64,000 nt of DNA from Bowmanella sp. JS7-9 (lineage in GTDB: Bacteria; Pseudomonadota; Gammaproteobacteria; Enterobacterales; Alteromonadaceae). A program made the translations under genes and the position numbers. Below the pieces are notes generated by a model that was not told the origin of the DNA, searched no databases, and saw only the letters and a list, made by a program, of their open reading frames with translations. Below, one piece after another: positions 301-55,163 of the stretch (within the stretch, counting starts at the first letter, position 1; the number at the start of each line of letters is the position of its first letter). The DNA lies in contig NZ_JXSY01000021.1 in assembly GCF_004329715.1 (NCBI RefSeq), positions 124,001-188,000 of the forward strand, written 5' to 3'.

Positions 301-3000
301 ATGTTCTCAAGCATACTGACAAAGATATTCGGCAGCAGTAACGACCGGATCCTGAAAAAACTGAACAAGCAGGTTGTGCAAATCAACCAATTGGAACCGG
401 AACTGGAAGCGCTCAGTGACGAGCAACTGCAGGCCAAAACCGCAGAATTCCGTCAGCGTATTGAAGAGGGCGCCAGCCTGGACTCGTTGCTGGTTGAAGC
501 CTTCGCGGTGGTGCGCGAGGCCTCGAAGCGTGTGTTTGGCATGCGTCATTTCGATGTGCAATTACTCGGTGGTATGGTGCTGCACTCAGGCAAAATTTCC
601 GAGATGCGTACCGGTGAGGGTAAAACCCTGACCGCTACACTGCCTGCCTACCTTAACGGTTTGAGCGGTAAAGGTGTCCACATTGTAACCGTGAACGATT
701 ATCTGGCACGTCGTGATGCCGACTGGTCACGTCCATTGTTTGCCTTCCTGGGGATGACGGTGGGCTGCAATATTCCGGGCATGGGCCATCAGGACAAGAA
801 AGAAGCCTATGGTTGTGACATTACCTACGGCACTAACAACGAATTTGGTTTCGATTACTTGCGTGACAATATGGCGTTTGCCCCGGAACAACGGGTGCAG
901 CGTCCGCTTAATTTCGCCATCGTGGATGAGGTCGACTCCATCCTTATCGATGAAGCGCGTACGCCGCTGATTATTTCCGGTCCGGCTGAAGATTCGTCAG
1001 AATTATACAAAGCGGTCAATAGCATTATTCCGGAACTGGTACGCCAGGAAAAAGAAGACGAAGAAGGCGTGGAAGGCGATGGTGACTTTACCATCGATGA
1101 GAAATCCAAGCAGATTCACCTGACCGAAAAAGGTCAGATCCATATCGAAGAAATTCTGCACCGTATCAAGGTATTGCCAGAAGACGAGTCTCTATTTGCG
1201 GCACAGAATATCTCATTGCTGCATCATGTGAATGCCGCATTACGTGCCCATCACCTGTTCCACCGCGATGTTGACTATATCGTCAAAGATGGCGAAGTGG
1301 TGATTGTTGATGAGCACACCGGCCGTACGATGGAAGGCCGTCGCTGGTCGGAAGGTTTGCACCAGGCGGTTGAAGCCAAAGAAGGTGTGAATATTCAGAA
1401 CGAGAACCAGACGCTGGCATCGATTACCTTCCAGAATTACTTCCGTTTGTACAATACGTTATCCGGTATGACTGGTACTGCCGATACCGAAGCATTTGAA
1501 TTTAATCATATTTATGGCTTGTTGACGGTAGTAGTACCGACCAATAAACCAATGATCCGTAATGATATGACCGATTTGGTTTATCTGACCGCGGAGGAAA
1601 AATATGAAGCGATTATCGAAGATATTAAGCAGGTTGTAGCGCAAAAGCGTCCGGTACTGGTGGGCACTATCAGTATCGAAAACTCTGAATTACTGTCGCG
1701 CCTGCTGACTAAGGCCAAGATTAAGCACAAGGTCTTAAACGCCAAGTTCCACGCGCAGGAAGCCGATATCATCGCCCAGGCAGGCTCGGCAGGGGCGGTA
1801 ACAATCGCCACTAACATGGCTGGTCGTGGTACCGATATCGTGCTCGGTGGTAACTGGCAGGCCGAAATCGCTAAGCTGGAAAACCCGACAGACGATCAAA
1901 TCGCCAAGATTAAGGCGCAGTGGAAAGAAGACCACGACAAAGTACTGGAAGCTGGCGGCTTGCACATCATCGGCACTGAACGTCACGAGTCGCGCCGTAT
2001 CGATAACCAGTTACGTGGTCGTGCCGGTCGTCAGGGTGATGCGGGTTCTTCGCGCTTCTACCTGTCGTTAGAGGATCCATTAATGCGCATCTTCGCCTCG
2101 GAAAAAATGGGCGCAATGATGAAACGTCTGGGCATGAAGCGTGGCGAAGCTATCGAGCACCCTTGGTTAAACCGTGCTATCGAGAATGCCCAGCGTAAAG
2201 TGGAAGGCCGTAACTTCGATATTCGTAAGAACCTGTTGGAATTTGATGATGTCGCCAACGATCAGCGTAAGGTCATTTACGAACAGCGCAACGAATTGAT
2301 GGATGAAGGCGATATTTCTGCCACCATCGATGCGATTCGTGAAGATGTGGTGAATAACGTCATCAGCGAATATATTCCGCCACAATCGTTGGAAGAAATG
2401 TGGGATCTGCCTGCACTGGAAGAGCGCCTGAAAGCCGAATTCCAAACCGACCTGCCGTTACGAGCCTGGTTGGAAGCGGACGATAAGTTATACGAAGAAA
2501 AGCTGCGCGAGCGTATTCTGGAAGAAGTGGTGGCCGCTTACCGTGCCAAGGAAGAGCAGATTGGTGGCAATGTGATGCGTCAGGTCGAAAAGGCCATCAT
2601 GCTGCAGTCACTGGACTCCCATTGGAAAGAGCATTTAGCTGCGATGGATCATCTGCGTCAGGGTATCCACCTGCGTGGTTACGCACAGAAAAACCCGAAG
2701 CAGGAATACAAGCGTGAGTCGTTTGAACTGTTCTCTGAGATGCTGGAAAACCTCAAAGTTGATGTAATTACCACCTTGTCGAAGATTCAGTTGCGCGCAG
2801 AATCTGATGCTGAGCGGTTAGAAGAACAACGTCGTCGTCAGGCCGAAGAGCTGCAGCGTAAGGAACAGTTATCTGGGCCATCTCAGGCCGCACCAGGCAG
2901 TGCAGTAATGCGTGAAGGGGCCAAAGTAGGTCGTAACGACCCATGCCCATGCGGTTCCGGCAAAAAGTACAAACAATGTCACGGTAGTCTAACTGCTTAA
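301..3000 (+). CDS. secA: Protein translocase ATPase SecA
   Basis: SecA is the cytoplasmic motor that uses ATP to push preproteins through SecYEG. The 899-residue length is normal. Visible features are the Walker A segment TGEGKT at residues 104-109, the DEAD-box-like DEVD at 209-212, the second motor motif region containing TNMAGRGTD, and a C-terminal zinc-binding SEC-C tail with Cys882, Cys884, Cys893 and His894 that binds SecB and phospholipid. The ATG has GGAAG about 10 bases upstream. An intrinsic hairpin follows closely, so secA probably ends its own transcript. No SecM-like arrest peptide is seen upstream. Confidence 0.98.
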
Positions 3001-3004
3001 GGAT

Positions 3005-3029
3005 AAAGGTCGGCAATTGCCGACCTTTT
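3005..3029 (+). terminator. Rho-independent terminator after secA
   Basis: A perfect inverted repeat (AAAGGTCGGCAA paired with TTGCCGACCTTT) starts five bases after the secA stop and ends in a short T run. Its right edge abuts the MITE-like element, so the original T tract may have been shortened by that insertion. Confidence 0.75.
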
Positions 3030-3030
3030 A

Positions 3031-3300
3031 TTAGAGCCTGTTTGTCTTTGTTTGTTTTGTATGCTGGTAGCAAAAATCATTCAGACCAAGGCGTTCAAGA
3101 TGCAGTTTGGCAATCCAAACAAATCTTGAACAACGCAGGTGTGGGGGGGGTTAGCCCCAGCCCAAAGGGCAGTGGCCTTTTTTAAGCCATGCTGCCCACA
3201 AATTTGCTTATTTGTGCCCACCAAACTTCACAGATTTGCGGTTGCCTAGCTTAAAAAATACCTACTGCATAGATAACTAACAAAGATAAACAGGCTCTAA
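3031..3300. mobile_element. MITE-like non-autonomous element, TA target duplication
   Basis: A 270-bp segment is bounded by inverted repeats of about 23-24 bp. The left end reads TTAGAGCCTGTTTGTC and the right end, on the other strand, TTAGAGCCTGTTTATC; both continue CTTTGTT or nearly so. The dinucleotide TA lies immediately outside each end (3029-3030 and 3301-3302), as expected for a TA duplication of IS630/Tc1-mariner type. There is no transposase ORF inside. Internal hairpins lie at about 3093-3131 (GTTTGG/CCAAAC with TTCAAGAT/ATCTTGAA), 3167-3197 (GGGCAG/CTGCCC) and 3198-3215. The right TA supplies the A of the mutT ATG. The assignment to an IS family is inference from the TA alone. Confidence 0.82.
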
Positions 3301-3301
3301 T

Positions 3302-3694
3302 ATGAAAAAAGTTGAAGTCGCAGTCGGTGTAATACGCCGCAATAACCAAATTTTTATTACTAAACGCCCGCAAAATCTGCATCAGGGCGGAAAGTGGGAA
3401 TTTCCCGGTGGCAAGCGTGAAGCCGATGAAAGCATGGATCAGGCGCTGGTGCGTGAACTGCGTGAAGAGGTCGGCATTGAGACTCACGGGCAATTGCCGT
3501 TACTGGTGATCGAACACGACTATGGTGATAAACAGGTGGTGCTAGATGTCCGAATCGTGGAGCAGTTCAGCGGAGAGCCACACGGACAGGAAGGTCAGCT
3601 CGGAGCGTGGGTCGCCATCAGTGCCCTCAGTGATTATGAATTTCCCGAGGCAAATAAAGTGATTATCGAAAAATTGCTTGAAAGAATTAGGTAA
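3302..3694 (+). CDS. mutT: 8-oxo-dGTP diphosphatase MutT (Nudix hydrolase)
   Basis: MutT hydrolyses 8-oxo-dGTP to the monophosphate and so prevents A:T to C:G transversions. The 130-residue protein carries a complete Nudix box: Gly37, Glu43, Arg51, Glu52, Glu55, Glu56, Gly58, Ile59, in the order G-x5-E-x7-RELREEVGI. The start matches the family (MKKVEVAVGVI). It follows secA, a conserved order, but the MITE-like element now fills the whole space between terminator and start codon. The only Shine-Dalgarno-like bases are a weak AGG at 3292-3294, inside the element, so expression may be reduced or driven from the element. Confidence 0.95.
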   Translation: MKKVEVAVGVIRRNNQIFITKRPQNLHQGGKWEFPGGKREADESMDQALVRELREEVGIETHGQLPLLVIEHDYGDKQVVLDVRIVEQFSGEPHGQEGQLGAWVAISALSDYEFPEANKVIIEKLLERIR

Positions 3695-54973: not shown

Positions 54974-55157
54974 GGAAACCACCCGGGATGCCGCTGCTCA
55001 GTGATTGCCCGTGAACCGAAAGTTCAGGGCGGAACTATCAAGGTCGCCGCAGGCTTCTCGATTCGAGTCGAGCTTGCACAAAAACAACACTATCAAATTC
55101 CTAAGTTTAAAGCATCGGCCAGGGACGTTTACTAAGCTGGCGAACATCCCAGGCGAT
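54974..55157 (-). ncRNA. ssrS: 6S RNA
   Basis: 6S RNA mimics an open promoter and sequesters sigma-70 RNA polymerase in stationary phase. Read on the minus strand the region shows the conserved 5' segment GATGTTCGCCAGC and GTCCCTGGCCGATGC, an AT-rich bulge, a central hairpin with CTCGACTCGAATCGAG, then GAACTTTCGGTTCACGGGC and a closing CGGCATCCCGGG that pairs with CCTGGGATG at the 5' end. The implied length of about 184 nt equals E. coli 6S. A TATAAT lies seven bases upstream of the 5' end. The ends are inferred from pairing and from E. coli. Confidence 0.92.
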
Positions 55158-55163
55158 GGACTA

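Follow-up and report, generated by a model that had tools for sequence, protein, structure and literature searches.

Introduction

The target of the ERIC and Correia elements is TA. Both are non-autonomous and short, carry inverted repeats at their ends and form stable RNA folds (review PMC10969869). The 264-bp element described here, which lies between secA and mutT of Bowmanella sp. JS7-9, resembles them in being short and non-autonomous and in having terminal inverted repeats and a stable RNA fold. ERIC and Correia elements differ from it in size, sequence and architecture, as judged from general descriptions, and unlike them it has an identified IS5-type parent class and an interior that is common to members with different termini. 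Promoter-like sequences have been reported within MITEAba12 (PMC6382973) and within SonMITE_1 of Shewanella; by description, these are likened to the present element as IS-derived MITEs of Gammaproteobacteria. QMITE1 and QMITE2 of Coxiella are gammaproteobacterial MITEs that yield small RNAs (PMC5896051), the former being 300-400 bp long with variable 2-3 nt repeats and the latter 150-190 bp with 7-11 nt repeats, as compared to 264 bp here. IS5-family insertion sequences (ISs; NF033580 transpos_IS5_3; PF13340 + PF01609) have the same terminal core (GRGNNTGTTGATCTTTG), TA flanks and host families as the element, but are 795-883 bp in length, encode a transposase and lack the two arms that it carries. 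Searches of open-licence papers yielded no description of this element family, and its termini were absent from the paper texts searched.

MITEs are usually taken for decayed transposons with a junk interior, whereas in this family it is the interior that is conserved, its members keeping their length and fold throughout the phylum while the sequence, even that of the termini, changes. Insertion of an IS5-type MITE is ordinary, but it is unusual for the interior to have a conserved, apparently strand-specific fold whose length is nearly fixed throughout a phylum. This raises a testable question, namely how a passenger element benefits from keeping a single-strand fold. Our overall reading, which we hold to be very probable, is that the element is a MITE inserted by an IS5-family transposase and a member of a family widespread in Pseudomonadota, with arm folding that would be under selection and a predicted lowering of MutT at this locus. 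A covariance model of the family could annotate many unlabelled intergenic repeats.

Boundaries and target of the element upstream of mutT

All coordinates refer to the window, a 64,000-nucleotide stretch of one Bowmanella sp. JS7-9 contig. The upstream neighbour of the element is secA (301-3000, + strand), followed by a perfect terminator-like hairpin (AAAGGTCGGCAA/TTGCCGACCTTT; 3005-3028, + strand) to the left of the insertion. Downstream lies mutT, encoding 8-oxo-dGTP diphosphatase (3302-3694, + strand), which is intact, its product matching TIGR00586 with 128 bits (cut-off 97.9) and containing a complete Nudix domain. The secA-mutT spacer holds a strong inverted repeat, with 3029-3064 complementary to 3267-3302 over 36 nt (89%), and the folding energy of the element region is 7 s.d. 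below that of shuffles. With up to three mismatches allowed, the terminal pattern matched the window only at the two element ends, with 0 matches expected in shuffles. No long ORF was found within the 264 bp. Elsewhere in the window, a 6S RNA gene is present at 54976-55158 on the - strand (Rfam RF00013, 91 bits).

An earlier sequence-only reading had recognized a MITE-like element in front of mutT. The element itself and its mobile origin were borne out, while its boundaries, target duplication and parent had to be revised. To set the boundaries, the termini were paired in 76 distinct relatives. In these, conservation of the element reaches out to G[A/G]G...C[T/C]C; TA borders it on either side, and the bases farther out vary. 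Thus defined, the element spans 3034-3297 (264 bp, GAGCC...GGCTC) rather than the 270 bp first proposed (3031-3300), T3031 and A3300 belonging to the flank. The left terminal inverted repeat (3034-3062, + strand) forms the 5' side of stem P1 and the right one (3269-3297, - strand) its 3' side; the repeats had been given as 23-24 bp, and the terminal stem is longer than this when the flanking palindrome is counted in. The target duplication comprises the TA at 3032-3033 and that at 3298-3299, positions at which nearly all relatives have TA in a YTAR context. The left flank reads CTA in 39 relatives, TTA in 21, ATA in 8 and GTA in 3, and the right flank reads TAG in 36 and TAA in 30, corresponding to a YTAR target. 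Length is 263-265 bp in 43 of the 76.

Because the duplicated TA at 3298-3299 lies two bases upstream of the mutT ATG, the start codon was not rebuilt by the duplication, as had been supposed; the TA at 3301-3302, from which the ATG takes its A, is ordinary flank. An IS630-derived MITE whose TA duplication restored the mutT ATG was nevertheless weighed as an alternative, since TA also occurs at 3029-3030 and 3301-3302. This outer TA pair is part of the palindromic flank of the element, the family comparison places the duplication at the inner pair, and the termini match ISs of the IS5 family, and we regard this alternative as highly improbable.

Parent insertion sequences

A search by terminal match turned up ISs that share the element's terminal core, lie between TA, are 795-883 bp in length and encode an IS5 transposase. 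They include L202 from Pseudoalteromonas sp. S16_S37 (883 bp), L094 (875 bp) and L196 from Litorilituus (795 bp), the transposases of which match the NF033580 IS5 family with 248-265 bits (cut-off 110), and parent-type IS transposases also match PF13340 and PF01609. The parents found are therefore of the IS5 family (NCBIfam NF033580), which accounts for the termini, and the IS630-like parent first suggested is not supported. NF033580 ISs are presumably IS427-like, with a TA/YTAR target. Accordingly, the element shares with IS5-family ISs both its termini and its YTAR/TA target. Its interior does not derive from them: the two arms are absent from the parent-type ISs examined, so the interior comes from a source other than the parents found. 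No element was found whose termini exactly match an IS of the same genome, and no PF13340-type transposase was found in the host genome. The most plausible course of events is that a transposase of the NF033580/DUF4096 group of the IS5 family inserted the MITE at a TA (YTAR), 2 bp before the mutT start codon.

Relatives and element-free spacers

The element is single-copy in its host genome (3.44 Mb, 47 contigs, ∼100% complete). A search of 397 genomes of the host's family yielded matches in 22 genomes from 16 genera, the longer of these being ∼66-78% identical to the element, and relatives of 263-265 bp are located at unrelated sites in these genomes. Relatives are also present in Shewanella, Colwellia, Pseudoalteromonas, Psychromonas, Catenovulum and Testudinibacter. 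Among 43 distant loci evaluated with a simple script, 24 have a clean TA-flanked boundary, 3 more have TAA and 1 has another 3-bp flank.

Comparison of secA-mutT spacers, as the sequence-only reading had proposed, revealed that in most relatives the spacer is 0-250 nt long and free of the element, and many of these spacers contain a secA terminator and a Shine-Dalgarno-like stretch ahead of the mutT ATG. The exact empty site for the mutT insertion is inferred, the spacers compared being those of other genera. In one genome (G022), from another genus than the host, an independent 262-bp member (L261, 1950-2211) occupies a different point of the secA-mutT spacer, before the terminator. The single copy in the host genome would fit a conserved native spacer into which nothing had inserted. 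This explanation is barely credible, given that the element is missing from the spacers of relatives and that its own relatives sit at unrelated sites with TA flanks. These observations, together with the parent-type ISs, uphold a MITE-like insertion; one copy in the host notwithstanding, the 264 bp are neither a conserved spacer nor without copies elsewhere.

A conserved fold with two inverted arms

An alignment of 24 divergent full-length elements (mean column identity 67%) was used to derive the fold; the members of the element alignment, A1, had been gathered on the basis of DNA similarity and terminal pattern, with no structure model used. The 24 elements fold as a four-way junction composed of the terminal stem, arm A, a small central hairpin and arm B. 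Arm A (3064-3160, + sense) is a long hairpin with an AAGGC/AAC internal loop and a GTTTGG..CCAAA tip, and is matched by the covariance model R1 at 3059-3168 on the + strand (92.5 bits, E 2.7e-21 genome-wide). The central hairpin (CCC..GGG) occupies 3161-3168. Arm B (3169-3268, - sense) is an inverted, diverged copy of arm A, matched by R1 at 3162-3272 on the - strand (46.1 bits, E 1.7e-8 genome-wide). Neither the element nor six of its relatives had a gathering-score match among Rfam families.

Pairing persists alongside compensatory changes. Of 2127 cells, 93.3% are paired, as compared to 73.8% when shuffled and ∼37-46% in slid controls. Double compensatory changes occur at 62 of 89 base pairs (44.8 shuffled), doubly changed cells number 430 (131.7 shuffled) and the covariation score is 0.535 (0.175 shuffled). 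Sequence differs greatly among the arm stems, but the internal-loop bases (AAGGC opposite AAC) and the GTTTGG..CCAAA tip are kept, and many distant members have tandem G.A/A.G oppositions in place of part of the inner stem. As judged from alignment, members from many genera have this fold in common and are of near-fixed length (264-267 bp). In the family, two terminal repeats fitting the current transposase enclose an interior of ∼210 bp, in which a small central hairpin lies between two hairpin arms that are inverted and diverged copies.

Other readings of the interior were considered. A long snap-back palindrome of the whole interior was rejected: read in sense, arm A has only 48% identity to arm B, and the two are hence unable to pair well together. 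An integron attC-like site was suggested by the hairpin shape, attC boxes being of a kind that cannot be recognized by eye. BLAST hits of 27 bp (L010 and L036) to arm A (window 3077-3107) resemble HSDQG, a motif present in IS3-type transposases; that the element had captured part of an IS3 transposase was rejected, since the similarity lies largely in the variable stem and is taken as chance.

Strand asymmetry of the arms

Wobble pairs were then compared between strands. In the top-strand reading of A1, in which cells come from related sequences and are hence non-independent, arm A has 35 G-U versus 9 A-C cells, or 18 versus 4 columns (column sign test, p 0.004). Arm B has the reverse, 11 G-U versus 22 A-C, a difference that taken by itself falls short of significance (p 0.18). 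The terminal stem has 10 G-U versus 5 A-C. The reversed counts indicate that arm B tolerates wobble on the opposite strand, which fits an inverted copy of arm A; the terminal stem works as double-stranded DNA. In arm-sense reading, 150 arms show a four- to sevenfold excess of G-U over A-C, in a set biased by the model that found it, which prefers G-U and includes one position with a G-U consensus. Since G-U exceeds A-C on opposite strands in the two arms, folding of the arms as single strands appears to be selected, and the interior fold of the family is apparently strand-specific.

Template switching is a known mutation process of imperfect palindromes and gives paired changes in stems. The compensatory changes could in principle have arisen in this way, through replication of quasi-palindromes with no selection on the fold. 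A strand-neutral process would yield G-U and A-C in equal numbers, rather than an excess of opposite sign in the two arms, and the unpaired AAGGC/AAC internal loops have been conserved and not corrected away. Of the explanations offered for the fold, template switching is the least favored, and we consider it improbable.

Arms A and B are no more alike within one element (identity 0.478) than between elements (0.467), indicating that the arms are old and have not been homogenized. Where arms are paired, they point inward in 56 of 56 cases.

Distribution and proposed exchange of termini

The distribution was determined with a covariance model of arm A at E ≤ 0.001. Of 369 Gammaproteobacteria genomes, 96 contained arm matches; for Pseudomonadota the figure was 104 of 398 genomes, families outside Gammaproteobacteria included, and matching genomes often contain about ten or more copies each. 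Many of the matches consist of two inverted arms within 264-267 bp but have different termini, either GGGCCTGTTAACACT... with TA or GAGCCTATCC...ATAAATCATCC with a 3-bp TAA duplication. Recurrence of the same arms with different termini suggests an inherited interior and termini that are exchanged among IS5-type transposases. A broader proposal, which we advance tentatively and at slightly less than an even chance, is that of a Pseudomonadota-wide selfish element of ∼265 bp, whose mirror-image arms would be selected as structured RNA or single-stranded DNA and whose interior would be the inherited core, with terminal repeats being swapped.

As to the reason for the fold, selection may act on one strand of each arm for its ability to fold, most probably when transcribed by read-through into RNA, an explanation to which we give about an even chance. 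With one arm sense on each strand, a read-through transcript would contain one correctly folding arm in either orientation of insertion. The main alternative is that RNA is irrelevant and that the fold matters as single-stranded DNA or as a cruciform, the arms extruding on the lagging strand or in supercoiled DNA and serving the element's own replication or transposition by aiding movement, target choice or persistence. This agrees with the symmetric inverted layout, which resembles transposon ends, with the near-fixed length and with arms that stay while termini change; DNA hairpins also tolerate G-T wobbles and tandem G.A pairs. IS5-family transposases, however, act on double-stranded DNA, and the parent ISs lack arms. 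Moreover, 47-187 bp derivatives that have intact termini and no complete arms also lie between TA, and the arms may therefore be dispensable for movement, unless these are later deletions. We judge the DNA alternative unlikely, though less so than template switching, and prefer folding as RNA in read-through transcripts.

Predicted effect on mutT

The only Shine-Dalgarno-like triplet before mutT is the AGG at 3292-3294 (+ strand), which, as had been noted earlier, lies inside the right end of the element, within the terminal repeat. The stretch 2950-3330 revealed no sigma-70-like promoter site, and the idea that the element itself contains a promoter was dropped, none having been found there. 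Should mutT be transcribed by read-through from secA, the right terminal repeat would pair in the terminal stem, and its palindrome reaches the A of the ATG. The predicted cost of opening the mutT start region is 23.9 kcal/mol in the secA read-through transcript, 12.6 kcal/mol at the inferred empty site and 1.9 kcal/mol in a transcript starting inside the element. The secA read-through RNA is thus predicted to bury the mutT start in the terminal stem, and this occlusion would lower MutT synthesis. The mutT insertion is a minor case for the family, but may lower MutT and so raise the mutation rate.

Adjoining, shortened and one-ended copies

Further arrangements were observed among the relatives. 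In each of two loci, L147 (1671-1934 and 1937-2200) and L068 (1238-1500 and 1503-1766), two family members adjoin exactly 2 bp apart, as though the boundary TA of one had served as the insertion site for the other. The derivatives of 47-187 bp (e.g. L046, L047, L063 and L013) keep the termini and TA flanks and have lost one or both arms. One-ended copies, in which the interior passes abruptly into unrelated DNA, are found in L074-L079 (genome G329), L080 and L082, as if adjacent deletions had started inside the element.
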